Below the pieces are notes generated by a model, which saw only the letters and a program-made list of their open reading frames with translations, ran no database searches and was not told the origin of the DNA. A stretch of 35,254 bases of DNA from Myxococcota bacterium (GTDB lineage Bacteria; Myxococcota_C; UBA6777): NCBI GenBank assembly GCA_023150835.1, contig JAKLKB010000061.1:1-35254 (forward strand), in the 5' to 3' direction. Position 1 is the stretch's first letter. Each line of letters opens with the position of its first letter. Shown piece by piece: positions 962 through 35,254 of the stretch. The position numbers were made by a program, and so were the translations under genes.

Positions 962-1302
962 CAACAAAAACTCTCCATGCGAGGGTTGAGGGGCCGAGAG
1001 GACGAGCCTGACAAAAGCGAAGCCCCGCATCAGCAAGCCAAATGCCAGAAAAAGGGTACCTCATCCGAATGGTCGAAGAATGGGACTCTTTTGGTTTCAG
1101 AGGCTTGACTTGTCGTATGTCTCGCACGTACGATGCCGATTCGTTTTGTGCCGAGGCGCGGCAAAAAGGTTGCCCAAAAGCAGCCCGAGCGGACGTCTCG
1201 CGGTGTAGGCATCTGCGTGCATGGAAGCATGTTGAAGAAGTTTTTTGAGTTGGAAGAAGCGAAAGCGTTTTGTGCCATTTGGTGACAGGCAAGGAGGGAT
1301 CG
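962..1302. other. Divergent intergenic region (341 bp)
   Basis: This stretch separates the divergent methyltransferase and lipoprotein genes. I see no convincing gene: overlapping short frames in both directions lack ribosome sites and protein-like composition. It holds one candidate sigma-70 promoter facing right (1105-1134) and the strong AAGGAGG site at 1291-1297 used by the lipoprotein gene. Confidence 0.5.
1105..1134 (+). promoter_or_regulatory. Candidate sigma-70 promoter for the vWA lipoprotein gene
   Basis: TTGACT at 1105-1110 and TACGAT at 1129-1134 are separated by 18 bp and point towards the gene starting at 1303. It would leave a leader of roughly 160 nt. The match is moderate and the call rests on sequence only. 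Confidence 0.3.
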
Positions 1303-19903: not shown

Positions 19904-20011
19904 GGGCATGGGGCGGGCTATCGAGGGTGGTTGGGACAGGAAGCGAGGGGAGCGGGTCGTGGTGGGTATGTGAAGGGCATGGGGTGGGCTATCGATGGCG
20001 GATGGGACAGG
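19904..20011. repeat. 37-bp direct repeat bracketing the 3' end of the IntI-like gene
   Basis: Copies at 19904-19940 and 19975-20011 (period 71 bp) share GGGCATGGGG, GGGCTATCGA and GGGACAGG with about five mismatches. The second copy encodes the last seven codons and stop of the integrase-like gene on the minus strand. The first copy lies right after the kynU stop and preserves the same stop triplet in the same register, so it looks like a duplicated gene tail. Confidence 0.6.
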
Positions 20012-21113
20012 GCGATGGGCTCCAAGCATCGAGCGGGCTTGGGATGGATTGAAGGTCAAGCGGCAAGTGCCACGAGGCGTCGTGTTCCCAAGCGAGGTCT
20101 TGGGGGAGACAGAGGCGGCGGACTTTTTCGATGGGATGGCCTTCTTCGACGAGATGCTCTACAAAACTGGCGCGCAGATTGGAGCAAGAGATAGATTCGT
20201 TGAGTCCGATGGCGCGGGCCGCACGTTGAAGGCTCTTTTGAAGGGTGCTTTCGTGCATATGATCTTGGCATTCAGGGCGTTCAGCCCGAAACAGCGGGCT
20301 ATTAAGCGACATAAAAACGTATCTCCAACTCCAAGCGTTGGCTTCTGAGCCGTTGCCTCGGCGCAGATAGACGGGGAGTCGGACGGCAGCAACACCATGT
20401 TTCAATTCTTCTTGGTAACGCCAGCGTGCGTGTTGGAGGTGGCGGATCAGCGGCTCGTAGAGATTGCGCGCCATGCGAACGGCACGCGAAGGTTTTCCTC
20501 GGGCATCGCGGATCAAGACGGTGGCATGGGTGAAATCGAGATCACGGACACGCAAGCGCAACACCTCAAACAGGCGCATCCCGCCGTTGTACATCAACAT
20601 CGCGGCAAGTCGGTTGTTTTCGTCCATGACTTGAAACATCGCGGAAAGCTCTTCGCGGGAAAGCGGACGTGTGCGCAAGCTATCGGGGGCGAGTCGCGGT
20701 TGGTTCGGATGGGAGCGGGTGGGCTTGGGAAAGCAAAGGCGTTGTAAAAAGCTGAGGGCAGCGCGGGCTTGAGCGATGCTGCTTGGAGAGCGTAGATCTT
20801 GTTGGAGTTTTTGCAAAAACAGGTCGCAAAGGGATTGAAAACCGGCGGGTTGGTCGGCAGAGGCAGGAGCGATCAACCGTTGTTTTTGCAAGGCGTCCCA
20901 AAAGCGCACGCACCAATGATGATAGGTGAGTAAGGTTCGCTCGCTGTAATCTCCCGCATGACGGGCATGTTTGAGGCAGAGCAAAAAGCTGTCTTTGGTG
21001 GTGTGTCTGAGCAAAAGTGCGGGGAGAGCAGGAGATTTGTGTTCGGGTGAGGGGAAACGAGAGGAAGAAAACGGTCTGTGTGGGGTATTGGTTGCGCCGA
21101 GTTGCATGGTCAT
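19989..21113 (-). CDS. Integron-integrase-like (IntI) tyrosine recombinase homologue, catalytic residues lost
   Basis: A 374-aa protein aligning along its length with integron integrases. The N-terminal SAM-like domain has YSERTLLTYHHWCVRF; the catalytic domain has MYNGGMRLFEVLRLRVRDLD with the first catalytic arginine (R180); the IntI-specific insertion is present (VRLPVYLRRG...WSWRYVF). At box II the family HTLRHSF reads SNLRASF: R314 remains but the histidine is S311. Gapless alignment to IntI1 puts P337 at the second histidine and A346 at the nucleophilic tyrosine; there is no tyrosine at all after R314. The terminal SPLDA motif is kept, so this is not a simple frameshift. It should not cut DNA but may still bind it. 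ATG 21113 has GGAGG 5 nt upstream. No attC-like sites were seen nearby. Confidence 0.75.
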   Translation of the reverse strand: MTMQLGATNTPHRPFSSSRFPSPEHKSPALPALLLRHTTKDSFLLCLKHARHAGDYSERTLLTYHHWCVRFWDALQKQRLIAPASADQPAGFQSLCDLFLQKLQQDLRSPSSIAQARAALSFLQRLCFPKPTRSHPNQPRLAPDSLRTRPLSREELSAMFQVMDENNRLAAMLMYNGGMRLFEVLRLRVRDLDFTHATVLIRDARGKPSRAVRMARNLYEPLIRHLQHARWRYQEELKHGVAAVRLPVYLRRGNGSEANAWSWRYVFMSLNSPLFRAERPECQDHMHESTLQKSLQRAARAIGLNESISCSNLRASFVEHLVEEGHPIEKVRRLCLPQDLAWEHDASWHLPLDLQSIPSPLDAWSPSPCPIRHR

Positions 21114-21376
21114 GGTGGCCTCCGAAACGATGGGGTGTGGATGGTTGCGCGAGCGATGCGTGGAGAAGCGAAAGCATCGAGCGCTTTTGTCTGCAAAGAG
21201 GCCCATGACAAGGGATGTTCCAACAGGAGATCAAGAAGTGCCTTCTCTTTATGTGTCGAGGTGTTGCGTGGTTTGGAAGGAGCAAGCAAAGCAAGCGAGA
21301 GCAGGGGATTGTCCAAAAAATGGCCGAGGGAGTGTTCGGGATGTGTGCATCGCCGAAGGGGCGCACAACGTTGCAA
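21110..21376 (-). CDS. Small hypothetical ORF overlapping the IntI-like gene by ATGA
   Basis: An 88-aa frame with a TTG at 21376 and a TGA that overlaps the integrase start codon (ATGA), the usual geometry of translational coupling. The second half is helical and protein-like (KEKALLDLLLEHPLSWASLQ). There is no convincing ribosome site and no family is recognised, so it may be chance. It is the only candidate gene in the 311-bp gap between the protease fusion and the integrase homologue. Confidence 0.25.
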   Translation of the reverse strand: MQRCAPLRRCTHPEHSLGHFLDNPLLSLALLAPSKPRNTSTHKEKALLDLLLEHPLSWASLQTKALDAFASPRIARATIHTPSFRRPP

Positions 21377-21424: not shown

Positions 21425-24400
21425 TCAGGGAAGGACGGGGAGATTGTCGATGGCTTTCCGAAGGAGTTCTTGGTTTTTGTGTGAAAAGCCGACAAGGTAG
21501 GAGATGATCTTTCCGTTGTGGAAGAGGACAAAGGTGGGTGTGGCGTTGATACGCAGTTTGGTGAAAAAGTCGCGTTGTGTGTCGACGGTGTTGTAAAAGG
21601 GCATGCTTTCGGGGTTTTGTGCGAGCCATGTGATGACGACGCGGGAGGTTTCGTTGCTGACGGTGAGGATGCGGAGGTTGCGGTTGGTGTAGGTTTTTTG
21701 GAAGGCGCGCAGGGCGGGGAGTGCGGCTTTACAGGGGCCGCACCATGTGGCCCAGAAGAAGGCGATCACCGTGCCTTTTTTGAGGTCGGGGAGAGGCTTG
21801 TTGAGATCGACAGAGAGCAGGGAACGGGTGTCAGGGGCGGCACGTCCGACGAGACTTTGTCGTTTCATTGAGGGCGGGTGGGTGAGGCGAAGGAAACGGA
21901 TATTGAGTTCAAGGAGTTTGCCATAACGAAAGACCAAGATCGGGATATCTTGGTCGGGTGGGCTGACCATGACACGCTCGCGGATCTCGAAGGGTTCGGT
22001 GAGTTCGTGTTTTCCGAGGGTGGTGATGATATCGCCTTCGCGGATGCCGGCGTGTGCTGCGGGTGTGTTGAGGTAGACTTCTTGGACACGGACAGCCCCA
22101 GAAGGAAGCAGCCAGCGTTCGGGGTTGGGGACGGGTTGGAAAGCGACGCCAAACCACGAAGGGAGGGGGATGTGCTCGCCTTCAAAGGAGAGGGGGCGGA
22201 GGTGTTCGGTGGTGGAGGTGTATTCTTCGCCGAGGGGGGTTTGTTCGCATTGGATAAGGTTGTGCAAGCCGCGCCGATAGCCGAGGTGATCGGGGTGTTG
22301 GCTGTGTTGGAGTAGGAGACGACCTGCGATGCGAAAGAGCAAGATCTCGATGCGTTGGAGGGCAGCGAGTTGAACTTTGCGTTGGAAGACAAAGTCGTGC
22401 ATCTCTTTTTCGCGCTGCTTGAGGAATCGCAGGCGCTCAAAAAGCATCGGGCGCATCTGAAGGTAGCGAAAGAAGGTTTGTTTGAGTTGGTTTGCGGTGT
22501 AGGCGTAGGTAGAAAAAGAGCGTTGGAAGCCTGTTTTTTTGGCGCGTCGTAGAAAGCGCAAGAAGTCAAGGCGGCGGAGCTGTTCGCCCGTACTGGGGGG
22601 GCCGACGGGAGGTTTTTGGAGATGGCGGAGCCGCTCGCGTAGTTGGCGGAGCCGTTCTTGGCGTGTGGCGGGAGTTTTGCGCGGCGTGGGATGGGTGGAA
22701 GGTGCGGACTTGGGGGCGTATCGCTGGCGCTGGCGCTCATATGCGCGAAGGCGCTGGAGGCGTTGATCAAGTTCGATGTAGCGTTGGATAAGTTGTTGCC
22801 GTCGTTGGTGGGCGGCGCGCTGTTGGGGAGAGAGCGGTTGTGGGCGAGAAGGGCGTTTGGATCGGGGTCGTCGGAGGAATTCGCTGAGAGCGCGATCGAC
22901 GCGTTGTTTGAAATCGGGTTGTTGTTTGAAGATGCCGTTGAGATGGTGATCGCGGGCAGTTTGGAAGACATTGGCCCACATACGTTCGACGCGCTCCCAC
23001 CAAGCGAGCTTTTTGCGCAGTTCGGCGCGTTGTTGTTGGAGGGCGGCGAAGTTGAGCGGGCTTTGGAGTCCGAAGCGACGGGCGATATCTCCGATCAGTT
23101 TGCGATCTTCTTGGATGCCGTCATACCCGAGCGAGGCGTATTGTTGGAGCAGTTGATCGCCGAGTTTGTACATCGAGATCTCGTCGGCTTGTGCGTCGGC
23201 TTGGAGCATGGCGTAGAGGTAAGCGTCAGAACTGCGGTGTGGGACGTCGGGGGTGCGGTCGGTCAGAAGGACTTGACGGTGAGCCTGATCGAGATCTTTG
23301 GCGGCACGCATCGCCAAGATAAAACGATACGCATGACCGACGTGTTTTTTGAGCTGGGTTTCGGGGAAACAGCCGTAAGCGTATTGGCTTGGGAGGGTGG
23401 CGTAGAAGCCGCAGCGGTCGCCTGTGGGGATGCCGAATACTCCGGGCTTTCGGAAGATGCTCCATGCAAAAGAACCCGAGAAACATTGCGACATCACCGA
23501 GACGATACGGCGTTGCCCAAAGGGCCGAAGCTGTTTGTGGAGTTGGCGAACGCTGAGCGACTCTTTCCAAAGAGAGATGGAGTTGTTGGTGAGTTTGGGG
23601 TCTTTGGAGTTGCGAGTGCCGTGATCGGTGACGAAAAGCAAGAGCGGACGGGGATCGTTGGGGTGTTTCTTTGCGAGTCGAGGCAGTTGTTTTTGGAGGG
23701 AGGCTTGGGTTGCAGGAAGCAACGTTGTATTCGGAAGATCAGTGTTGATCAGCTTGGGGCGTTGGACAAAGAGACGAGACTCACGACGCCCGTCAAACAG
23801 CCAACCTTGCGGATCTTGGCGCTTGTGGAGGATGGCTTGATCAGGTTTGGGATCTTGGCCGTCTGCGGAAAAGATGCTGATCTGCTCGGATGATAGGCCG
23901 CGTTCTTGAAGAACCATCCGCATCATCCGAAGATAGAGGACGTGGGAGTAATAATTGATATCGGGGGAGCCTCCACCGTTGAGCAGGATGGCATGCGCAA
24001 AAGGCCCGTGGCTGTGGCTCTTGTCTTGGGTGGGAGCAGGAGCGGAGGCGGATATCTTCGGATGGGCTTGGGGCTGTTTTGCGATCCGTGCGGAAGATTG
24101 GGCTGTTTGGGGTTGTTTTGTGATCCGTGCGGAAGATTGGGCTGTTTGGGGTTGTTTTGTGATCCGTGCGGAAGATTGGGCCGTTTGAGTCGATTGAGAG
24201 GTGGGAGATGTGCGTGCGGTGGGGCGGGAGGTGGGGAGAAGTCGTGCGATGGGGCGGGAGGTGGGGAGAAGTCGTGCGATGGGGCGGGAAGTGGGGAGAA
24301 GTCGTGCGTGGGGCATGTTTGGGGTGGGAGAGAGAGGTCGAGAAGTCGGGAGAGATTGGGCGAAGGCAGGAGAAGTGGGGAGGAAAAGCAGAATGGCGAG

Positions 24401-24439
24401 CCAAGGGGCGTACCGCAAAGGGCGAAGGAGGCTTGGCAT
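21425..24439 (-). CDS. Secreted caspase/C13-like protease fused to PDZ and C-terminal thioredoxin (TlpA-like) domains
   Basis: A 1004-aa exported protein. The signal peptide is MPSLLRPLRYAPWLAILLFL to SPAFA. Residues about 35-150 are Ser/Thr/Pro/Gln-rich linkers with 10- and 13-residue tandem repeats. A clan CD cysteine-protease domain covers about 155-420: AILLNGGGSPDINYYSHVLY, LLFVTDHGT with His273, and SVMSQCFSGSF with Cys319, as in legumain and caspase families. Residues about 440-760 are highly charged, Arg/Gln-rich and probably helical. A PDZ domain covers about 763-855 (VYLNTPAAHAGIREGDIITT). The end is a thioredoxin domain with WCGPC (C900, C903) and cis-Pro segment NATPTFVLF. ATG 24439 has GGAG 8 nt upstream. 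It follows TlpA- and CcmH-like genes on the same strand, so a periplasmic thiol/protein-quality role is inferred; the substrate is unknown. Confidence 0.75.
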   Translation of the reverse strand: MPSLLRPLRYAPWLAILLFLPTSPAFAQSLPTSRPLSPTPNMPHARLLPTSRPIARLLPTSRPIARLLPTSRPTARTSPTSQSTQTAQSSARITKQPQTAQSSARITKQPQTAQSSARIAKQPQAHPKISASAPAPTQDKSHSHGPFAHAILLNGGGSPDINYYSHVLYLRMMRMVLQERGLSSEQISIFSADGQDPKPDQAILHKRQDPQGWLFDGRRESRLFVQRPKLINTDLPNTTLLPATQASLQKQLPRLAKKHPNDPRPLLLFVTDHGTRNSKDPKLTNNSISLWKESLSVRQLHKQLRPFGQRRIVSVMSQCFSGSFAWSIFRKPGVFGIPTGDRCGFYATLPSQYAYGCFPETQLKKHVGHAYRFILAMRAAKDLDQAHRQVLLTDRTPDVPHRSSDAYLYAMLQADAQADEISMYKLGDQLLQQYASLGYDGIQEDRKLIGDIARRFGLQSPLNFAALQQQRAELRKKLAWWERVERMWANVFQTARDHHLNGIFKQQPDFKQRVDRALSEFLRRPRSKRPSRPQPLSPQQRAAHQRRQQLIQRYIELDQRLQRLRAYERQRQRYAPKSAPSTHPTPRKTPATRQERLRQLRERLRHLQKPPVGPPSTGEQLRRLDFLRFLRRAKKTGFQRSFSTYAYTANQLKQTFFRYLQMRPMLFERLRFLKQREKEMHDFVFQRKVQLAALQRIEILLFRIAGRLLLQHSQHPDHLGYRRGLHNLIQCEQTPLGEEYTSTTEHLRPLSFEGEHIPLPSWFGVAFQPVPNPERWLLPSGAVRVQEVYLNTPAAHAGIREGDIITTLGKHELTEPFEIRERVMVSPPDQDIPILVFRYGKLLELNIRFLRLTHPPSMKRQSLVGRAAPDTRSLLSVDLNKPLPDLKKGTVIAFFWATWCGPCKAALPALRAFQKTYTNRNLRILTVSNETSRVVITWLAQNPESMPFYNTVDTQRDFFTKLRINATPTFVLFHNGKIISYLVGFSHKNQELLRKAIDNLPVLP
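24060..24320 (-). repeat. In-gene tandem repeats (39-bp and 30-bp units, three copies each)
   Basis: About 24068-24186 holds three 39-bp units encoding TAQSSARITKQPQ-type linker repeats; about 24232-24320 holds three 30-bp units encoding LLPTSRPIAR. Units are nearly identical at DNA level, which implies recent expansion. Both lie in the linker between signal peptide and protease domain, and keep frame. Confidence 0.8.
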
Positions 24440-24515: not shown

Positions 24516-25274
24516 TCAGGCGGTGTGTTTGTGTTCGAGGGTGTGGTGTGAGGATTGTTTTCCACGAGCATTCCAGTCGAGGATCAGGAAAAAGACGATC
24601 ATCAAGATAAAGGCCGCAGCAGCGATGGGAAGCCAAAAGATATCTTGGTGGGGAGGGATGGCAAGGATGCGCTCACCAAAGCGCTTGACGTAGGCATCCA
24701 AGATCTGCTTGTCGGTATGGCCTGCGACGATGCGCTTTTTGAGGTCCAGTTTGATCTGATCGGAGGCAGGGCTGGGGTGCATGGAGACGGGTTGTACCCA
24801 ACAGCAAGGAGCGATGATCAACGTGAGCAGGTGCTGATAACGCCGAAGTTGGGCAGCATTGAGGGTGGGCGCATCTTCGGCCTTTTTGGGGGCGGAAGAG
24901 GCTGTCAGCGAGTCTGGGTTGTGGCTGGGGGGGGGCGCGTTGGTGGGCACCGAAGGAACGGGGCTTTGTGTGGATGGCGTGTTGTTTTGTGTCGAAGGTT
25001 CGGTTTTTTGTGCGGATGATGGGTTGCTTTGTGCCGAAGGTTCGGTTTTTTGTGCGGATGAAGTGTTGTTTTGTGCGGAAGGAGCGGCAGAAGATGATGC
25101 TGTGGTGGAGGGGAGAGGGATGGGTTGGAGGCGTGACCATCGCGGTGCGGGTGGCTTGCGTGGTGCGGGTGTGGTGGTGGTCGGTGGTGCTGCGTGAAGT
25201 GTGTGGGCAGCGCAAAGCAAGGCCACCGCGAGGAGGGGTTGAAGAGATCGTTGCAATGTCGGGAGTGCGGGCAT
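24516..25274 (-). CDS. CcmH-like cytochrome c biogenesis protein with a CCW motif
   Basis: A 252-aa protein. The signal peptide (MPALPTLQRSLQPLLAVALL to HTLHA) is followed by a Ser/Gln/Thr/Pro linker of about 100 residues with a 14-residue repeat (SAQKTEPSAQSNPS type). The CcmH/NrfF-like domain starts near residue 145: IIAPCCWVQPV, SDQIKLDLKKRIVAGHTDKQ and ILDAYVKRFGERILAIPP. Classical CcmH has LRCxxC; here the two cysteines are adjacent (C157, C158), a variant I associate with deltaproteobacterial homologues. A single membrane segment (FWLPIAAAAFILMIVFFLIL) and a short basic tail close the protein. CcmH reduces apocytochrome c cysteines before haem attachment. ATG 25274 has AGGAG 8 nt upstream; the TlpA-like gene ends 44 bp upstream, so they are probably co-transcribed. 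Confidence 0.8.
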   Translation of the reverse strand: MPALPTLQRSLQPLLAVALLCAAHTLHAAPPTTTTPAPRKPPAPRWSRLQPIPLPSTTASSSAAPSAQNNTSSAQKTEPSAQSNPSSAQKTEPSTQNNTPSTQSPVPSVPTNAPPPSHNPDSLTASSAPKKAEDAPTLNAAQLRRYQHLLTLIIAPCCWVQPVSMHPSPASDQIKLDLKKRIVAGHTDKQILDAYVKRFGERILAIPPHQDIFWLPIAAAAFILMIVFFLILDWNARGKQSSHHTLEHKHTA

Positions 25275-25318
25275 TGTGGGGTCTCCTATCCGCAGAGATC
25301 GAACGGATGCGGGTGCGT

Positions 25319-26245
25319 TCAATGAGGTCGGCTGGTTGGTGCGTTGGGGGCGCGTTGTAGAGCAGGAGCGGGTCTTGGTGTGGGGTCGTGTTGCAGGGCG
25401 GGTGCGATCTGGGGTTGGTTTGGCGCGTGTTGCAGCGTGGGTGCGGAGGGACGAGAAGCAGAACCGTGTTGCAGCGTGGGTGCGGAGGGGCGAGAAGCAG
25501 AACCGTGTTGCAGCGTGGGTGCGGAGGGACGAGAAGCAGACATGGGTTGTGTGGCGTGTAAGGGCGGTGGTGTGGGCTGTTTGGGAGCGGGGGAAGAGGT
25601 GGGAGGGTGTTTTTTCGACTTGAGTTTTTGGATGAGTTGGCGGAGGGCGTTGTCGGAGAGACCGCCCGTTGCGTAATGAGCGACGCGGGCATCGGGTCCG
25701 ATCACGACGAGGCTAGGGAGGACACGGATCTTGAATTGCGCGGAAGCGCGGGGTCCGATGTGATGGTAGGCCCATTCGTTTTGGGGGATCTTGTATTTGG
25801 TGAGGAAGGTTTGAAGTTCGCTGGTGGGCATTTGGAGATCGGTGCTGACGAGAAGGGATTGGATGCCTTGTTCTTGGAGAAGTTTGGCGCGTTTGGAGGC
25901 GCTTGCAAGGCCACGGATGCAGGTGGGACACCATGTGGCCCAAAAGTGCAGGACAGTGATCTTGCCTTGGAGAGTGGGCTTCCATTTTTTGGCTTTGTGG
26001 ACATCGATGAGGACAAAGCGTGGGGCTTGAGCGCCTTTGGGGATGGAGGGTTTGGGTTGGTTGAACATCCGAAATGCGACAAGGGCGAGTAGAACAAGGA
26101 TCAAGAAGTTGAGCATGGAGCCGGCAGGATCGCGGCGTTGTGGTCCTTGTGACGAAGAAGTCCCGTTGCGGCTGTGTTTGCGCGAGGCGCGTGGGGAGGC
26201 ATCGGGTTCATCGTGAGGCAAGGGGCGAGCTTGTTTGGGTGACAT
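25319..26245 (-). CDS. Membrane-anchored TlpA/CcmG-like thioredoxin with repetitive C-terminal tail
   Basis: A 308-aa protein. Residues 1-43 are polar and basic (cytoplasmic side), residues 44-61 are one membrane segment, and residues about 70-200 form a TlpA/DsbE-type thioredoxin domain in the periplasm: VLHFWATWCPTC with C106 and C109, a VSTDLQMP strand and the cis-Pro segment RVLPSLVVIG. The tail (about 215-308) is Pro/Ser/Ala/Gln-rich with three copies of SASRPSAPTLQHG. With the following CcmH-like gene it resembles the CcmG-CcmH pair that handles thiols in cytochrome c maturation; other ccm genes are not in the window. ATG 26245 follows GAGGACCACC. It begins 18 bp after the adenosine deaminase stop, suggesting one transcript. 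Confidence 0.83.
   Translation of the reverse strand: MSPKQARPLPHDEPDASPRASRKHSRNGTSSSQGPQRRDPAGSMLNFLILVLLALVAFRMFNQPKPSIPKGAQAPRFVLIDVHKAKKWKPTLQGKITVLHFWATWCPTCIRGLASASKRAKLLQEQGIQSLLVSTDLQMPTSELQTFLTKYKIPQNEWAYHHIGPRASAQFKIRVLPSLVVIGPDARVAHYATGGLSDNALRQLIQKLKSKKHPPTSSPAPKQPTPPPLHATQPMSASRPSAPTLQHGSASRPSAPTLQHGSASRPSAPTLQHAPNQPQIAPALQHDPTPRPAPALQRAPNAPTSRPH
25428..25544 (-). repeat. 39-bp tandem repeat, three copies, inside the TlpA-like gene
   Basis: Units start at 25428, 25467 and 25506, exactly 39 bp apart, and are nearly identical. They encode the 13-residue repeats in the protein tail and keep the frame. Confidence 0.88.
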
Positions 26246-26263: not shown

Positions 26264-27499
26264 TTATTCTTCGGAGCGGATGCCGTGTTTGCGTTCGACG
26301 GACTCGTAGAAGTCGATCATTTGGCGGACATACGCTCGTTTTTCGATATACGATTGAGGGAAAAAACTACGCTTAAACCCGTAGATGACGATATTGCGGA
26401 GTTGGTGAGGGGTGAGGTCAAAGTGTTCGGCGGCGAGTTGAACTTCGTTGCTGACGCTGGTGTTGGAGATGGTGCGGTTGTCGGTGCAAAGGGTCACGCT
26501 GAGTTTGGCGTCGAGCATTTTTCGGAAGTTGTGATCGGCGATGCTGGTGAGTTCGGGCATGGTTTGGAGATTGCTGGTCAAACAAACTTCGATGGTGATA
26601 CGGCGTTCGGCGATAAACTGGGCGAGTTGTTTGATGTAAAGTTCGCGGTCAAGGATGCGTTCATTTTGGATGCGGTCGGCGCTGAAGAGGTGGTAGCAAT
26701 GACCGATGCGATCAGCGTGGAGGGTGGTGATCGCTTGGAAGATGCTTTCAGGGCCGAAGGCTTCGCCTGCGTGGACGGTTTTGCTGAGGAAGTGGCGATG
26801 GACGTAGCGGTAGGCTTCGACGTGATCGTCGGCGGGGTATCCGTCTTCTTGTCCGGCGAGATCGAAGCCGACGATGGGGATGCCTTCATCGCGTTTGATC
26901 GCGACGATGGCTTCGGCGAGAGAGTTGGAGGCGAGGCTATAGAGGCGGGGGGTGGCGGTGTAGGTGTGGACATCATTAAAACGGCGGAAGTACTCGGAGA
27001 AGTTTCGTGTAAACATCCGCATGGCGCAAGTGATGATGCCGTATTCAAAGGGGGGTTCTTTGCCATCGCGGATATCGGGGAAGTTGTTGAATTCTTTTTT
27101 GGCTTTGGCGAGTCCAGCGTTCACATGGCGGAGGACTTGGGCCATATTGAGTCCGGGGCGGCTGTGGAGTTGGGGAGCGAAACGGACTTCGATGTAGCGG
27201 ACGCCTTCGGTAAAGTTATCGCAAGCGAGTTCATAGGCGCAACGTTCGAGGGCTTCGCCTGTTTGGAGCACAGCGACGGTGTATTGAAAGCCGCTCAAGT
27301 ATTCGCCGAGGTGGGCGTATCGGGCTTTGAAGACGGTTTCTTTGAGTCCGTCTTCGGTGTACGAAGGGAGGGGGACTTTTTGTTCTTGGGCGAGTTCGAT
27401 CAGGGTTTTGATGCGGATGGAACCGTCGAGATGGAGATGAAGATCCGTTTTGGGGATCTCGCGGATAAATTCGGGGGTAAGCTGGTTATTTTTGGTCAT
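26264..27499 (-). CDS. add: Adenosine deaminase
   Basis: A 411-aa zinc enzyme of the amidohydrolase superfamily converting adenosine to inosine in purine salvage. Zinc and catalytic motifs are visible: KTDLHLHLDGS (HxH), TVHAGE, DRIGHCYHL and VTLCTDNRTISNTSVSNE with the metal-binding Asp, plus the substrate loop GFDLAGQED. Some length above the 330-350 aa norm comes from inserts in the N-terminal half. ATG 27499 has GAGG 7 nt upstream; the track-like TTG one codon earlier is less likely. It heads a run of four closely spaced minus-strand genes (gap of 18 bp to the TlpA-like gene), though a functional tie to thiol chemistry is not evident. A long antisense frame over this gene is a shadow. Confidence 0.93.
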   Translation of the reverse strand: MTKNNQLTPEFIREIPKTDLHLHLDGSIRIKTLIELAQEQKVPLPSYTEDGLKETVFKARYAHLGEYLSGFQYTVAVLQTGEALERCAYELACDNFTEGVRYIEVRFAPQLHSRPGLNMAQVLRHVNAGLAKAKKEFNNFPDIRDGKEPPFEYGIITCAMRMFTRNFSEYFRRFNDVHTYTATPRLYSLASNSLAEAIVAIKRDEGIPIVGFDLAGQEDGYPADDHVEAYRYVHRHFLSKTVHAGEAFGPESIFQAITTLHADRIGHCYHLFSADRIQNERILDRELYIKQLAQFIAERRITIEVCLTSNLQTMPELTSIADHNFRKMLDAKLSVTLCTDNRTISNTSVSNEVQLAAEHFDLTPHQLRNIVIYGFKRSFFPQSYIEKRAYVRQMIDFYESVERKHGIRSEE

Positions 27500-27909
27500 C
27501 AAATATCCTCGTGTTGGGTTCGAGAGGGCGAAGATTCTGCCTGTTGGGGAGCGGGGTGCATTGTGCGCGATGACAAGCGAAGGCAGGCAGAACGAAGCGT
27601 GAGTGTTGCAGGGATAGCGTTCAAATTGACCGAAGCATCGGGTCTTTTCGGCTTTTGATCAAAGGCTTTGCCCGCGCCGTAGATTAAATTCGGTGTATTA
27701 TGGGGCGGGGGGGATCGAAGCGCAAGGCCATCAAAAAAGAACAGCGAGCAAGAGACAAGGGACGCGATCGAAAGACTTGACCTGTGGAGGGTTTTGCGAA
27801 AAGATGGCCGATAACGCAAATCAAAGGCTCCAAGAAGGCAGCCCAACGTGTCGAGCAAGCCGTCGGGTTGGGGTTCAAAGGCAGCACAACAGGAAGGGAA
27901 TGGATTACG
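27500..27909. other. Divergent intergenic region (410 bp)
   Basis: It separates add from the TPR-protein gene. It holds one short very basic frame at 27700-27780. A minus-strand frame of 119 codons ends in TGA overlapping the add start (TGATG), but lacks features of a real protein. I see no clear promoter or hairpin. Confidence 0.4.
27700..27780 (+). CDS. Possible small basic peptide (26 aa)
   Basis: The ATG at 27700 opens a 26-residue frame that is extremely basic (GSKRKAIKKEQRARDKGRDR) and ends in TGA. No ribosome site is visible. A leader peptide or small nucleic-acid-binding peptide is conceivable, but chance is equally likely. Confidence 0.15.
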   Translation: MGRGGSKRKAIKKEQRARDKGRDRKT

Positions 27910-28540: not shown

Positions 28541-29470
28541 TCAATCGCCGTAGGAAGGGGGGGCAGGGGAGTAGCGAGAAGGCGGAAAATAGGGAGGTGT
28601 GTGAGGGGGAGGGATGATGATCGGGCGTGGTCGGTAGTGGTAGGGACGGCAGTAACGTGTAAAGATGCCGGTGTTTTGGAAGCCTGCGCAATTGTTGTAG
28701 CGGAGGGCGAGTTGCCATGTGGGGGCCATCGAAGCGCGGCGGAAGGTGGTAAAGACAGAAGGGGCGTGTTGGTGCTCGCCATAAGCGGTGCCAAGGCCGG
28801 GCTGATGTGGGGGGCGGAAGGGGCGTCGCCAGCGGTGGTAGGGCATACCTGCTGCGGATTTGGCGCGAGAGGGAGCGGGTTCGCGGTCGGCGTCTCGGGT
28901 TGCAGGTTGTCGTTGTTCTTCGGCGCGTCCGTCGTGTGCGCCGCGACGGAAGGGGACAGGATGCGGGTGTGGGATATAGGCGATGGGTTGGTGTTCACGG
29001 AAGACAGAGACACGGATCGAGCCGATGTCGTAGAGCGGACCGCCCATCCTTGCGGCATAAGAAGACGATATCGAGGAGAAACGGAAAGCTGCCACGCTGT
29101 GCTGACTGGTGCGAAAGCCCGTGATATCGACATAAGCATACGGGTTCAGCACGTACCCGCGATGGATATCGGGGCGTGTGGGTTGCCCGTTGATCACATC
29201 GCGTCCGTCCACAGCAGTCACGACTTCGATGCGTTGGTTGGTGAGGTTGCGGATCAAGATCGAGTAGGGTTGTCCGCGTCGTCCAAGCACGAATATCTGG
29301 CCGTGATGCCAGAAGTGAGGGAGGGAGCTTCCGTGACTGCGCAGTTGCACGCTTACCGCTCCAAGGGAGACTTCGCCTCCGCTGCCTGCGATCCGTGCGG
29401 TGGCACAGCCAAGTTGAGGCCAAAAAAGCAAGGTGCCTGTGAACAAAAAGAAACGTAAGAGTGTTGACAT
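28541..29470 (-). CDS. Exported protein of unknown function with a conserved N-terminal domain
   Basis: A 309-aa protein. A signal peptide (MSTLLRFFLFTGTLLFWPQL) ends near LGC, so it may be a lipoprotein although the lipobox is imperfect. Residues about 45-155 form a beta-rich domain seen as 'hypothetical' in many proteobacteria: YSILIRNLTNQRIEVVTAVD with GRDVINGQ, HRGYVLNPYAYVDITGFRTS and AAFRFSSISSSYAARMG, then IGSIRVSVFRE. The remaining half is Pro/Arg/His/Tyr-rich and probably disordered, ending in PPPHTPPYFPPSRYSPAPPS. ATG 29470 has GGAG about 11 nt upstream. It is divergent from the giant gene at 29635 across 164 bp. No enzyme motif is visible. Confidence 0.7.
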   Translation of the reverse strand: MSTLLRFFLFTGTLLFWPQLGCATARIAGSGGEVSLGAVSVQLRSHGSSLPHFWHHGQIFVLGRRGQPYSILIRNLTNQRIEVVTAVDGRDVINGQPTRPDIHRGYVLNPYAYVDITGFRTSQHSVAAFRFSSISSSYAARMGGPLYDIGSIRVSVFREHQPIAYIPHPHPVPFRRGAHDGRAEEQRQPATRDADREPAPSRAKSAAGMPYHRWRRPFRPPHQPGLGTAYGEHQHAPSVFTTFRRASMAPTWQLALRYNNCAGFQNTGIFTRYCRPYHYRPRPIIIPPPHTPPYFPPSRYSPAPPSYGD

Positions 29471-29634
29471 GGTTTGTATTTCTCCGCATAGAGTGGTATC
29501 CAAAACTGCCTCGTCTTATACGAACGCTCAACAAAAAAGATCTTTACAGGGGTCGAGCCAAAAATTGTGCGGGTGGTGTGCGCCTCTCGAAGTCCGCGGT
29601 TGAGCGCGTTGTGCAACGTGTTAGGAAAAGCAAG

Positions 29635-32600
29635 ATGGAAAACCAAAATCTGGGTGGCTCGGTGTCGTCGTTCTCATCGTTGGAGATCTGTGGCTTGTGC
29701 GGCCATGCAAACCCGCTGGATCAGCGGTTTTGCGGTCAATGTGGTGCGGAATTAAAGGCGTATCTCCAACGGATGCGGGAAGTTCAGCGTGGGACGCAAG
29801 AAGGCCCCCAGATCCAAGTGACCTTTTTGTACGGCGTGTTTGGGGAGTCCGAGGGAGGCGTTCGAGACGCCGAGACGTTGGACAAGCTGCGCAAGCGGTT
29901 GATGGGGCGTTTTCGTTTGGTGGTGACAGAGCGAGGAGCCAAGTTCGAAGACATGGGGCGCGGTCGTTTTAGTGCGACGTTGGGGATTCAAGATCCGACC
30001 GAAGAAGATCCACTTGACGCGGTGACGTTGGGGTTGAAGCTGCTGCGCTTGTCTGCGGTGGCTCCGCAACTTCCGCCGCTACGCCTTGCTGCAACGACGG
30101 GGCGCATCGCGAAGGCGTCCATTGAAAAGCCTTTGGCCCAAGAACAAGACGCCGAAGAGATCGTGGGTGGGCATGGCCTATTGCGCCTTGCAAGTAAGGT
30201 GGTTTGGCATTGTCCTGTGGGTGGTTTGCTGGTGGATGGTCTGACCTATCGGATGATCCGAGACACCCATCGCTGCAAGCGATTTCGTTTGGGCGGCGGG
30301 GTGCTGTCTTCGACCGCCTTTTATGAGGTGGAAAGCTCGGTCGATGCGGCGGGTGCATCCTACGATCCTCCGCTGGTTGGGCGAGATCGCGAGATGGCGC
30401 GGATGGTGCGCGTGTTCGAGCGCGTCGAAGTGGGAGAGGGGCCGATCTTTTTTACGCTGACAGGAGAACTGGGGATTGGAAAGACGCGCTTGTTGACGGC
30501 GTTTCAACAGCAGATCTCTGGTCGGGCGATGCTGTTTCGCAACCCCCGTGAGCGCCGTCGAATCGACCGATGGCGTCGCACTCCTTACTCCTATTTTGCC
30601 GAGATCTTGCGGGCCTTTTTCGAGATCTACGAAAACGAAGAGGACGAACTCAGCCGCCAAAAACTGGTGCAAGGGATCTTGAGTACCACCACCGAACAAA
30701 GTGATGGCCGCTTGCGCGAAATGACCCATCTGATCGGGCTTTTGTGCCAAGTCGACTTTCCAGACTCCCCCTACATCGACGCCGAACGCGAAGATCCCAC
30801 TCAACTCGAACGCCGCGCTTTTACGGCCCTCACCAACTATCTTGAACGCGCTGCAACCCGCCGCCCCATCGTCTTTTTGCTCGACAACTTGTATTCGGCG
30901 GATACTTCCTCGATCCGCTTGTTGAAGCATCTTGCCCAGTATCTCGAAAGCGCGCCTGTCTTGTTTGTGTGTGCTTCGCGCAGCTCGCTGTTGGCGCAGC
31001 TTGAAGAAGAAGCCTCGCTGATCTTGCCGGGTGAACGGCTGACTTTGCGCCCACTTTCCGAAGAGGCCGCTCGCAAGATGCTCAGCAGCCTTTTGCCTGA
31101 GCGCGCCCAACTTTCTCAAGACGCGATCACTCGGGTCTTGTCGATCGCCGAAGGCAATCCCTTCTTTTTGCGTGAGTGCTTGCGTGATCTCCATGAACAA
31201 GGTCTGTCCGCGCTGACCGCAGAAGGGGGGGCCGATCAGATCGATATCCCGGGAAGCATCGAAGGCATCTTGCAAGCGCGGATATCTCGACTGCAACCCG
31301 ATGAGCGCGATATCTTACAAAAGGCCGCTGTTTTCGGTAAAAGCTTTTGGCGCGGCGGCGTCGAGATGTTGTTGCGCTACGAAGGCGAGATCAAACCCGG
31401 ATGGCGCGTGGCCGATGGAGTGCTGCTTGATCGCGACGATGACGCCGAAGATATCTTGACGCGCCTAGAAGCCCAAGGCGTCGTCCAGATGAATCATGCC
31501 ACCACCTTCGACGGCGAGGCGCAGTACAGTTTTGTCCCGAGCCTGCTTCAAGAACTGGTCTACCAAGAACTCCCCGAAAAGCTATTGCCTGCCTACCATC
31601 GACTCGCTGCGCAATGGTTGGAACTGGTCGCCCGCAACAAACACCAAGATCTCGGTGCAGATATCGCCCATCATCTGGAGCTTGGCGAACTTTCCTCGCG
31701 TGCGGCGTTGTACTGGCTTGAACTCGGCCAGCGCGCAGTCAAGGCTTTTTCCCTTGATTCCGCCATCGAATACCTCGAAAAAGCCCTGAAACATCTCGAT
31801 GGGACGCTTTCACATAAGCGCGTCGAAGGCTTGCGCTCCCTCGCCGAAGCCCACCTCCAACAAGGCCGTTATCCCGAGTCTATGCGCTGCTTTGAACAAT
31901 TGTTGAGCTTGTCTTGGCAGATGGGGCAACGCGTCCTTGCTGCCGAAGTCTACACCCGCATGGGATGGGTCGCCTTTTTGATGCGAGACTTTGACAAGTC
32001 CCTCGATCTGCTCAAAAACGGCCATTGTTTGCACCAAGAAAGCGACTACATCCGAGGCGTCGCAATGGCGCTTTCGCACATGGGAAAAGTCTACACCGTC
32101 TTGGGCGATTACGTTCAGGCCCGTCTCTACCTTCAAGAAGCCTTGGATATCCGACGCCAACTTGAACACGCAGGAGACCTTGCTTGGACGCTCAACGATG
32201 TCGGCAACCTGTATTTTGAACAAGGCGAACTGGCCGAAGCGCGGCGCTATCACCAAGAGTCGTTGGAGATCCGCCGCCGACTCGGACATACCCCGCAGCT
32301 TTTGCAGTCGATGAATAACCTTGCGCTGCTGCATGTCGCCCGTGGCGATTATGATGCCGCACTCTCCGAGCTTTTGGATATCTTGGAACTGGCCGAAAAA
32401 ACCGGCGATAAACTGGCCTTGGCGGTGGTCTTGGCAAACTTGGGCGAAGTCTACCTCTTACAAGGCGAATTGAATGCTTCCGCTCAACATCTCGAACGCG
32501 CCATCCAGACCGCAGGAAAGCTCAGCGATACCCTGATCTTGGCGGAGTGTTATCGGTTGTATGGTGAACTGGCCTTGGAGCGCGAAGCCCCCTTGGTTGC

Positions 32601-35254
32601 GTTGGATTGCTGCGGCACGGCCTATCGTTTGGTCACCGAACGCGGTATCCGCTCCGCGATGGCCGCGATCTATCGCTTGATGGGTCAAGCCTTCGCCGCG
32701 ATCTCGCCCGATCTTCTCGCCCGTGAACGTCACGTCGATGGTGAACGCAAGCATCTCCCCTCTGAGTTCTTTGGCCAAGCCCGCGCTTGTTTGGAAGAGT
32801 CCATCGCAACAGCCCGTAGCCACGGCAATACTCGCGAAGAAGCCAAAAGCCGCCTCGAACTGGGCGTCTTTGAAGCCGAACAAGGAAGCATCGCACGTGG
32901 CCGTTATCAGGTCGAACAAGCCCGATCGATCTTTGCTCGTCTTGGCATGGAGTTCTATCGGCAGCTTGCCGAACGTATGCTGGAGGATATCGACGCCTAC
33001 CAACAAGACGAAGATCGCCCCGTCGATGTCGAGCAAGACAACAACTCCCCCTCCCCAAACCCTGCCGCACAAACCATCCAATTCCGCCTGTCCTTCGACG
33101 ACAACGAGCTTGGACCCGCCCCCACTCCCGCCGAAGATCTCGGCGACGAAGGCGATATCGGCGCTCTGATGGAACAAGCCTCCTCAGGGCTGTTGCCCGC
33201 CGTTGTCCGAAAAACACGACCCCAACACGCCAGCGATACCGCTGAGTCTCTCGCCCCCAAAGAGGCCCCCCCTCGCGACAAAACCAATGCCTCCCTCCAA
33301 ACCCAAGAGGCCCCCCCCCGCGACAAAACCAACGCCTCCCTCCAAACCCAAGAGGCCGAAACGCCCACACAAAAAAACACCGAAGCATGGGTCCAAGACA
33401 GCGACACCCTGCTTGCTTTGAGCAACACCAAACAACCCCCCCACGATGACGCCGACGGTGACGCCGACGATGACGCCGAACAAACCGTGTCCTTGATGGC
33501 TGATGATCTAGAACAATCTGATGATCCCGATGATCCCGATGCGCCGACTCAATTCGCTCCGTCCAAGGCATCCGCTCCGTCCAAGGCGTCCGCTCCGTCC
33601 AAGGCGTCCGCTCCGTCCAAGGCATCCGATCCGCCCAACGTATCTGATCCGCCCAATGTGTCCGATGAGGGTGAGATCGGCAAAGCCACTCCCCTCCACG
33701 ATGTTGCTTTGCTTTCATCTGCCTCCTCTATCTCCAATGCCCCCCTACGCCTTCCCCCGCCCTCTTCTCTCAAAAAAGATCCCCACGCCTACGAAGACCT
33801 TGAAACCAATCTTCACCTCAAACCAAGCAACGAAGCCCTCTTGCCCGAAGACCATTATCCCCTTGAAGCCCTTGGCCATGCGCCTTCTTTCTCCGAAAAT
33901 CAACGCGAAAAGTCCACCACCACCGCTGTCTCCCAAACCTCCGAAGAACTCCCGAGCATCGACGATGAAAAAGAGATCCCCGAAAAAACCATGGTCGCTC
34001 CCGTCCATGTCGTCGAAGCCCTCGCCCAAGCCAGCGCCCGCGATACCACCGAACGCAGCCTCTCCGAAAAAAAGGACGCCTTGGTCGATGCCTTCTCGGA
34101 TGCCGATCACGACGACGAGTGGACCGAACGAAAAACCATGCGGGTACAAGGTCTCCCCGCATCGCCTACAACACCCGCGATCTCCACAACTCCTGCCACT
34201 TCCACAACTCCCGCAATCTCCACAACTCCCGTAACCACCGCACCATCCACAGCAAAGGCCCCTTCGACTTCCGCACCATCCACAGCAAAGGCCCCTTCGA
34301 CTTCCGCACCATCCACAGCAAAAGCCCCTTCGACTTCCGCATCTTCCTCCTCAAATCCGCCTACAGCCATCGCACCCTCCGCCGCAAAGTCATCCTCTTC
34401 CCCTCAAACGGTGCGGCCCTCGTCCTCCGATATCCCACAGCTCTCCGTGAAAACCACTCCCTCCACAGGTGCCCCCTCCAACCCCACCAAACCAAGCCCG
34501 ACCCCTCCCACCAAAGATGCCGCCTCCACAAGATTGCCGTTCCCGATGCTGTCAAACCCCAGTCTGCCCGGTGTCCTCAACCCCGCCCACTCTGTCCCCG
34601 AGATGCCCAGCGTCGGTCAATGGAACCCCGCTCACTCTATCCCCGAGATGCCCGGAATCATCGCTCCCCAAGATTCGCTCTCTTCCTCCGCTGACCGCCC
34701 CGCCGCCCGCCCCCTCCCCGGAACTCCCTCTTATGACGATCTCCCCGGATGGATCGCCCCCGAAGAACAAAAACACCTCCCCCACATGGGCGGCAAACTG
34801 CCCTTCCCTAGCCTTTCGCGTACTGATCTCCCCGCGATCCCCCCTCCGTCGATGATCTCGCAGCCCACACAACCCCCTCTCCCTTCCCGTACAAAAGAAA
34901 GCACTCCTCCTGCCGCAACCGCCGTCCCCTCGGCTTCTTCTCCTTCCGCTCAAGATGCACCCACCAAAAAAACCGATAGCTACCCCCCCGAAGAAATATT
35001 CTGGTCCCAAAGCTCCGAAAAGATCGAATCCTTCGCCGTCGAAGAAGATCCCCGCTGGCAACAAAAAGCACCCCAAGAAGTCCAACCCCTCCCCCCCAAA
35101 CCCAAAGTCGCCCCCCCACCGCCTCCCCCACAAGCCCTCAAAGCCCGTCGTTCGGGTACTCCCGCACACGGTGAACCCCTCCTCTCCGCCTCTTCTACCC
35201 CCGCCCATGGCCAAGATGCCCTCCTGTCCCCACCCCCCTCCTCCGATGATATCA
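29635..35254 (+). CDS. Giant zinc-ribbon / degenerate cyclase / AAA-ATPase / TPR regulator with long disordered tail (3' partial)
   Basis: The frame is open from ATG 29635 to the window end (at least 1873 aa); AGGA lies about 11 nt upstream of the start. A zinc ribbon comes first (C19, C22, C33, C36). Residues about 55-215 resemble a class III nucleotidyl cyclase domain but lack its metal-binding aspartates (LRLAATTGRI, GGHGLLRLASKV). The AAA_16/STAND ATPase starts with PLVGRDREM; Walker A is GELGIGKT (K283) and Walker B VFLLD (D417). A winged-helix part is followed by about ten TPR units (about 690-1110). From about 1120 on the chain is disordered, Pro/Ser/Thr/Ala/Asp-rich with short repeats (APSKAS x4, APSTAKAPSTS x3). 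No signal peptide, so cytosolic. Such proteins are typical signalling ATPases of myxobacteria. The ligand and output are unknown. Confidence 0.85.
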   Translation, partial: MENQNLGGSVSSFSSLEICGLCGHANPLDQRFCGQCGAELKAYLQRMREVQRGTQEGPQIQVTFLYGVFGESEGGVRDAETLDKLRKRLMGRFRLVVTERGAKFEDMGRGRFSATLGIQDPTEEDPLDAVTLGLKLLRLSAVAPQLPPLRLAATTGRIAKASIEKPLAQEQDAEEIVGGHGLLRLASKVVWHCPVGGLLVDGLTYRMIRDTHRCKRFRLGGGVLSSTAFYEVESSVDAAGASYDPPLVGRDREMARMVRVFERVEVGEGPIFFTLTGELGIGKTRLLTAFQQQISGRAMLFRNPRERRRIDRWRRTPYSYFAEILRAFFEIYENEEDELSRQKLVQGILSTTTEQSDGRLREMTHLIGLLCQVDFPDSPYIDAEREDPTQLERRAFTALTNYLERAATRRPIVFLLDNLYSADTSSIRLLKHLAQYLESAPVLFVCASRSSLLAQLEEEASLILPGERLTLRPLSEEAARKMLSSLLPERAQLSQDAITRVLSIAEGNPFFLRECLRDLHEQGLSALTAEGGADQIDIPGSIEGILQARISRLQPDERDILQKAAVFGKSFWRGGVEMLLRYEGEIKPGWRVADGVLLDRDDDAEDILTRLEAQGVVQMNHATTFDGEAQYSFVPSLLQELVYQELPEKLLPAYHRLAAQWLELVARNKHQDLGADIAHHLELGELSSRAALYWLELGQRAVKAFSLDSAIEYLEKALKHLDGTLSHKRVEGLRSLAEAHLQQGRYPESMRCFEQLLSLSWQMGQRVLAAEVYTRMGWVAFLMRDFDKSLDLLKNGHCLHQESDYIRGVAMALSHMGKVYTVLGDYVQARLYLQEALDIRRQLEHAGDLAWTLNDVGNLYFEQGELAEARRYHQESLEIRRRLGHTPQLLQSMNNLALLHVARGDYDAALSELLDILELAEKTGDKLALAVVLANLGEVYLLQGELNASAQHLERAIQTAGKLSDTLILAECYRLYGELALEREAPLVALDCCGTAYRLVTERGIRSAMAAIYRLMGQAFAAISPDLLARERHVDGERKHLPSEFFGQARACLEESIATARSHGNTREEAKSRLELGVFEAEQGSIARGRYQVEQARSIFARLGMEFYRQLAERMLEDIDAYQQDEDRPVDVEQDNNSPSPNPAAQTIQFRLSFDDNELGPAPTPAEDLGDEGDIGALMEQASSGLLPAVVRKTRPQHASDTAESLAPKEAPPRDKTNASLQTQEAPPRDKTNASLQTQEAETPTQKNTEAWVQDSDTLLALSNTKQPPHDDADGDADDDAEQTVSLMADDLEQSDDPDDPDAPTQFAPSKASAPSKASAPSKASAPSKASDPPNVSDPPNVSDEGEIGKATPLHDVALLSSASSISNAPLRLPPPSSLKKDPHAYEDLETNLHLKPSNEALLPEDHYPLEALGHAPSFSENQREKSTTTAVSQTSEELPSIDDEKEIPEKTMVAPVHVVEALAQASARDTTERSLSEKKDALVDAFSDADHDDEWTERKTMRVQGLPASPTTPAISTTPATSTTPAISTTPVTTAPSTAKAPSTSAPSTAKAPSTSAPSTAKAPSTSASSSSNPPTAIAPSAAKSSSSPQTVRPSSSDIPQLSVKTTPSTGAPSNPTKPSPTPPTKDAASTRLPFPMLSNPSLPGVLNPAHSVPEMPSVGQWNPAHSIPEMPGIIAPQDSLSSSADRPAARPLPGTPSYDDLPGWIAPEEQKHLPHMGGKLPFPSLSRTDLPAIPPPSMISQPTQPPLPSRTKESTPPAATAVPSASSPSAQDAPTKKTDSYPPEEIFWSQSSEKIESFAVEEDPRWQQKAPQEVQPLPPKPKVAPPPPPPQALKARRSGTPAHGEPLLSASSTPAHGQDALLSPPPSSDDI
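33271..33360 (+). repeat. 45-bp tandem duplication in the disordered tail
   Basis: Two adjacent 45-bp units encode APPRDKTNASLQTQE twice. Farther on, 18-bp units (about 33550-33630, APSKAS) and 33-bp units (about 34240-34340, APSTAKAPSTS) repeat in the same frame. All are multiples of three, so the tail grows without frame loss. Confidence 0.75.

Follow-up and report, generated by a model that had tools for sequence, protein, structure and literature searches.

Legumain, the asparaginyl endopeptidase of clan CD, accommodates asparagine through the S1 pocket residues Arg44 and His45, and the activators known for the clan are pH, Ca2+, InsP6, dimerisation and proteolysis, none of which is redox (PMC4357240). 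DegP, a protease with a PDZ domain, degrades apocytochromes c (PMC5742617). In the 35,254-nucleotide stretch of DNA analysed here (the window), the open reading frame at 21425-24439 on the minus strand encodes a protein of 1,004 amino acids with a signal peptide. Behind the signal peptide of the predicted exported protein come a low-complexity linker and a C13-like protease, then a long helical stretch, and finally a PDZ domain followed by a TlpA-type thioredoxin. The open reading frame, Pfam profiles and models agreed with a preliminary description of this gene in its coordinates, in its numbering of H273, C319, C900 and C903 and in its domains and their order. That account was incomplete, as the helical insertion, a four-cysteine core, two paralogues and a conserved ResA-CcmH gene run were absent from it. 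The features of the gene are as follows.

21425-24439, minus strand: whole gene, a C13-like protease with a helical insertion, followed by PDZ and TlpA-type thioredoxin domains (open reading frame and Pfam)
24356-24439, minus strand: Sec signal peptide, residues 1-28, AFA/QS (sequence; kept in the genus-mate L028)
24014-24355, minus strand: low-complexity linker of Pro, Ser, Thr and Arg with short tandem repeats, residues 29-142 (sequence and dN/dS)
23156-24013, minus strand: legumain-like protease domain of clan CD, residues 143-428 (model and structure comparison)
23621-23623, minus strand: catalytic His273 in a TDHG motif (present in 115 of 116 homologues)
23483-23485, minus strand: catalytic Cys319 in an SQC motif (present in all 116 homologues)
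23411-23413, minus strand: Cys343 in a CGF motif, probable structural disulfide partner of Cys731 (co-occurrence)
23369-23371, minus strand: Cys357 in a YGC motif, within the loop that follows strand five, probably not disulfide-bonded and close to the active site (from the pattern of pairing)
22235-23155, minus strand: helical insertion within the caspase fold, residues 429-735 (865-residue model)
22247-22249, minus strand: Cys731 in an LxxCE motif, at the C-terminal end of the protease core (sister-clade comparison)
21881-22168, minus strand: PDZ domain, residues 758-853 (Pfam and dN/dS)
21440-21859, minus strand: TlpA/ResA-type thioredoxin domain, residues 861-1000, with WCGPC at 899-903 (Pfam and structure)

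An alternative in-frame ATG is located upstream at 24571, and the start at 24439 yields a normal signal peptide (MPSLLRPLRYAPWLAILLFLPTSPAFA/QS), in agreement with the earlier view of an exported chain. From the signal peptides, the fused protein is predicted to be exported to the periplasm. The linker that follows is mostly absent or much shorter in the genus-mate L028. Its tandem repeats are short and in frame (TSRPIARLLP and QTAQSSARITKQP), and short in-frame tandem repeats, SASRPSAPTLQHG, were also observed in the tail of the protein encoded by the nearby ResA-like gene (25319-25600); the low-complexity linkers of these two genes are changing.

A profile search of solved structures by sequence, using the protease profile, gave chance matches only, and the Pfam match to Peptidase_C13 at residues 254-372 was weak (E value of 0.0017; 18.4 bits, under the cut-off of 22.8), so that a fold search was needed. 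The AlphaFold2 model of residues 143-428, made from a 43-sequence alignment, had a pLDDT of 90.8 and a pTM of 0.89. Its top match among solved structures was legumain (Foldseek E value of 1.6E-9; Z of 18.5 and rmsd of 3.4 with 203 residues aligned), and after the legumains the next matches were metacaspases, GPI transamidase and caspases. A second model, covering 865 residues and made from 13 sequences, had a pLDDT of 77 and matched legumain with a Z of 17. Because the legumain matches to this larger model extended from model residue 2 to approximately residue 611 and so crossed the helical region, the roughly 300 helical residues at 429-735 were assigned as an insertion in the caspase fold, placed before its last elements. 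The C13 profile was reached above its cut-off by the fused relatives L104 (24.8 bits), L106 (30.7 bits) and L038 (28.6 bits). Since these proteins pass and the window protein fails, the family was classed as C13-like, at the edge of C13.

In the model of residues 143-428, H273 and C319 sit after model strands 124-128 and 170-174, giving the arrangement that defines clan CD, with His and Cys at the ends of successive strands of a caspase-like alpha/beta fold. The clan CD assignment of the preliminary description was therefore upheld by the model, and so was its His-Cys dyad, which is intact in all but one of the 116 homologues. The exception, a fused homologue (L127:4897-7311), has SQG in place of DHG and retains the Cys, the PDZ domain and the CxxC; it is possibly an inactive relative. 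The fused protein of the window is predicted to be proteolytically active. In a sequence alignment through a bacterial C13 protein (L075), an invariant Ser165-His166 aligns with the position of the legumain S1 residues Arg44/His45. Since the S1 arginine is apparently replaced by Ser165, the cleavage preference probably differs from that of legumain, and specificity for asparagine would not be expected. The caspase/metacaspase (C14) profile PF00656 did not match the window protein at E values up to 1. Elsewhere in the genome from which the window comes (G000), there are eleven matches to the PF00656 caspase domain, and a single contig (C203) accounts for four of these.

The PDZ domain matched PF13180 (PDZ_2) at residues 764-847 with an E value of 4E-7 and 30.5 bits, above the cut-off of 27. 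At residues 864-989, Pfam thioredoxin families matched with E values of about 1E-11 (1.6E-11 for PF00578), and the structures closest to the C terminus of the 865-residue model were DsbE, ResA and CcmG, with Z of 17 to 19.5. C900, C903 and the cis-proline P968 are conserved, which identifies the domain as a thioredoxin of the TlpA/ResA type; for the CcmG/DsbE family TIGR00385, the score was 22.3 bits against a cut-off of 123. The PDZ and thioredoxin domains might act mainly as non-catalytic binding modules, with redox activity being incidental. This would suit L104, in which the CxxC is replaced by SGKG in a retained thioredoxin domain, and several other members that lack the Trp before the CxxC, but both CxxC cysteines are present in 34 of the 35 members that have the domain, and we consider such a role very improbable. 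The thioredoxin domain has been lost from three further proteins of the fused clade (L106, L115 and L126), which, like L104, keep the His, the catalytic cysteine and the remaining core cysteines.

The distribution of the fusion was then considered. In the window's phylum, five genomes carry up to three paralogues each (A, B and C) with identical domain order. A survey of 386 genomes across the taxonomic domain gave one further full-length fused member, in G378, and a search of 377 genomes of the second, larger phylum to which G378 belongs gave approximately 27 strong loci. The survey thus extends the fusion described earlier to paralogues and to a second phylum, all within one clade. In two further phyla (582 genomes) the protease was present, with no fused PDZ or thioredoxin in the loci examined. 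In a tree of 75 protease domains, 41 fused proteins were separated with a support of 100 from a sister clade of 34 proteins that share the protease core and have no PDZ or thioredoxin domain; three entries inside the fused clade that show neither domain (L031, L039 and L118) reflect contig ends or a broken frame. Because the fused proteins form one clade, and the sister clade and the loci examined in the other phyla are unfused, the simplest account of the fusion is a single, old origin. An assembly error as its source was rejected, given the same order in paralogues of five genomes and in the loci of the second phylum.

Compared with the genus-mate, dN/dS was 0.09 for the whole gene, 0.026 for the protease, 0.018 for the PDZ domain, 0.078 for the thioredoxin, 0.124 for the helical part and 0.31 for the linker. 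The protease, PDZ and thioredoxin parts are all under purifying selection and are therefore kept together for use. These ratios, together with the homologues, ruled out a chance open reading frame.

The window protein has exactly six cysteines, C319, C343, C357, C731, C900 and C903, and all six are invariant, where covered, among 14 members of the window's phylum. The first four constitute a core retained by the fused clade and, apart from a few exceptions, by its sister clade, whose proteins terminate a few residues past the LxxCE motif of C731. Across the 116 homologues, the C-terminal CE motif of C731 is always accompanied by C343, and all 11 proteins without C343 are also without C731. C357 is missing from L189, L190 and L192 (and, by inspection, from L199), all of which retain C343 and C731; L191, which was only partially aligned, was excluded from these counts. 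These patterns of co-occurrence and loss suggest that C343 and C731 form a structural disulfide, which would fasten the core's end to the fifth strand and leave C357 unpaired beside the catalytic C319. A C357-C731 disulfide is less likely, as C731 and C343 stay when C357 is lost and C731 was never found without C343. A role for C731 as the dedicated partner of the thioredoxin CxxC was ruled out by its conservation in proteins without a thioredoxin.

The periplasm is an oxidising environment, and one way to account for the fused thioredoxin is a redox switch in cis, in which Cys319 would be held oxidised, perhaps as Cys319-Cys357, and reduced by the thioredoxin, with activity following the reducing power of DsbD/CcdA. 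If C343-C731 is structural, C319 and C357 are the natural partners that remain near the active site of this six-cysteine protein, and in one family unfused relatives adjoin DsbD and TlpA genes. Nevertheless, we regard such a switch as rather unlikely, since the protease core and its four cysteines persist without the CxxC in L104 and without the thioredoxin in L106, L115 and L126, since the core cysteines are kept, with few exceptions, throughout the sister clade, which has no thioredoxin, and since the known clan CD activators are not redox (PMC4357240). The preliminary description had proposed that a built-in thioredoxin could keep the protease active. The four fused-clade proteins and the 34 members of the sister clade argue against this as a requirement, and the thioredoxin may still contribute in this way where it is present.

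The genomic context of the gene was compared among genomes. Three genes lie upstream of it.

26264-27502, minus strand: adenosine deaminase-family gene, first of the conserved run (PF00962, E value of 3E-69)
25319-26245, minus strand: ResA-like TlpA thioredoxin gene
24516-25322, minus strand: CcmH-like gene, the sole CcmH found in the genome (PF03918, E value of 5E-11)

The run of adenosine deaminase, ResA-like gene, CcmH and paralogue A, to which the window gene belongs, was found on one strand in four genomes from three genera (G000, G001, G003 and G004), with the order conserved at L028, L029 and L030. In each of the four genomes the CcmH of the run was the only one found; in G002, where the contig ends at the gene, no CcmH was found. 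CcmF is located elsewhere, away from the run. In the CcmH-like protein itself, a motif with two vicinal cysteines, PCC[WY].QPVS.H, takes the place of the usual LRCxxCQ and is conserved in three genera. Just downstream of the protease gene, on the same strand, is a tyrosine recombinase of the Phage_integrase family (19989-21206), a position that is kept in the genus-mate and was not seen in other genera. Farther away, the window encodes a protein of ASH/HYDIN-type Ig-like domains (1270-3495), which are otherwise characteristic of ciliary and centrosomal proteins, and a protein of approximately 1,930 residues with a zinc ribbon, an AAA ATPase and TPR (29461-35253) that reaches the window end.

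DsbD was present in all nine genomes tested. Between paralogues B and C, a thiol gene was nearby only for B, which lies approximately 4.4 kb from DsbD in two genomes (G000 and G001) without forming a clean operon. The fused gene of the second phylum was not near CcmH and had no consistently adjacent thiol gene; the sampled neighbours were unrelated (AcrB transporter, radical SAM, sulfatase, kinase and multicopper oxidase). A role in cytochrome c maturation was therefore rejected as the general job of the family. In one family of a third phylum, the unfused protease of two genomes (L224 and L225) is encoded immediately downstream of DsbD and close to TlpA genes. Their C13-like cores are encoded at L224:6842-8947 and L225:5653-7965, and that of L224 is joined to a BSP-family peptidase domain (PF04450). 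For unfused proteases more broadly, thiol genes were nearby at 4 of the 20 loci from one phylum and at 0 of the 20 from another, too uneven a result for a general association to be claimed.

That the gene shares a run with a ResA-like gene and CcmH, and that its thioredoxin domain is structurally close to DsbE, ResA and CcmG, would also suit a reading in which protease and thioredoxin serve different clients and are simply joined in one chain, the thioredoxin being a reductase in its own right or an additional ResA/CcmG for apocytochromes. We judge this to be improbable: the run already has a separate ResA-like gene, the single chain is kept in most members across two phyla, and the same fusion occurs in homologues far from CcmH.

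The reading that we tentatively favour is that of a PDZ-targeted reductase-protease for envelope processing or quality control that acts on disulfide-containing clients. The protein would be an exported legumain-fold thiol protease equipped with both a targeting domain and a disulfide reductase. The PDZ domain would bind the tails of clients, client disulfides would be opened or captured by the TlpA-type CxxC, which presumably is recharged by DsbD/CcdA as the membrane reductant, and the legumain-like domain would next cut the loosened chain. In the lineage of the window, paralogue A may have come to serve the thiol-reducing ResA-CcmH branch of cytochrome c maturation, with mis-oxidised or unused apocytochromes as plausible clients. 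An action on proteins with wrong disulfides was the second proposal of the preliminary description, and it is the better fit of the two, because it agrees with the PDZ domain, with the run of ResA-like and CcmH genes and with the destruction of apocytochromes by DegP; the direction of the redox reaction and the identity of the clients are what we infer. The favoured mechanism is also supported by the unfused relatives next to DsbD and near TlpA genes and by the presence of DsbD in all nine genomes. Counted against it are the three members that have lost the thioredoxin domain and kept the protease, and, for paralogues B and C, the restriction of a nearby thiol gene to B in two genomes.

More guardedly still, protease activity may be coupled to periplasmic disulfide reduction through the fused thioredoxin, whether by way of client disulfides or of a Cys319-Cys357 switch, and the protein may constitute a proteolytic branch of the handling of cytochrome c thiols. 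If true, this would be a redox-driven member of the caspase/legumain clan, adding redox coupling to the known controls of clan CD, and it would connect proteolysis with the thiol chemistry by which cytochrome c is assembled, a process in which DegP is the protease implicated so far (PMC5742617). The conserved six-cysteine pattern makes the redox idea directly testable by point mutants of one protein.

Each part of the protein has counterparts among known systems. With legumain (C13, clan CD) it has in common the caspase-like fold (Z of 18.5) and the TDHG and xC motifs, and it differs in scoring under the C13 cut-off, in its helical insertion of approximately 300 residues and in the added PDZ and thioredoxin domains; no sign of the C-terminal LSAM region of legumain was seen in the window protein. 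The bacterial metacaspases/orthocaspases (C14B) likewise have the clan CD fold (Z of 17.9 for plant metacaspase 4) but have other motifs and other domain partners, and the window protein is without PF00656. DegP, DegQ and DegS (HtrA) are also periplasmic proteases with PDZ domains, and the PDZ sequence of the window protein is near that of DegQ. They are, in contrast, serine proteases of another fold without a thioredoxin domain; the trypsin-like serine protease domain of HtrA/DegP is absent from the window protein, of which the PDZ part alone matches (31.8 bits against 416). The ResA, CcmG (DsbE) and TlpA oxidoreductases have the same type of thioredoxin (Z of 17 to 19.5), and the window gene lies beside ResA-like and CcmH genes, but these are free or membrane-anchored reductases, whereas here the thioredoxin is the C-terminal part of a protease. 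The protease-PDZ-thioredoxin architecture was found in no NCBIfam model and in no paper of the searched literature, which covered few subscription papers, and to that extent the earlier statement that no described protein has this order holds. Each domain is ordinary alone, and the combination, which is old and apparently undescribed, brings known parts together in a new and conserved assembly.
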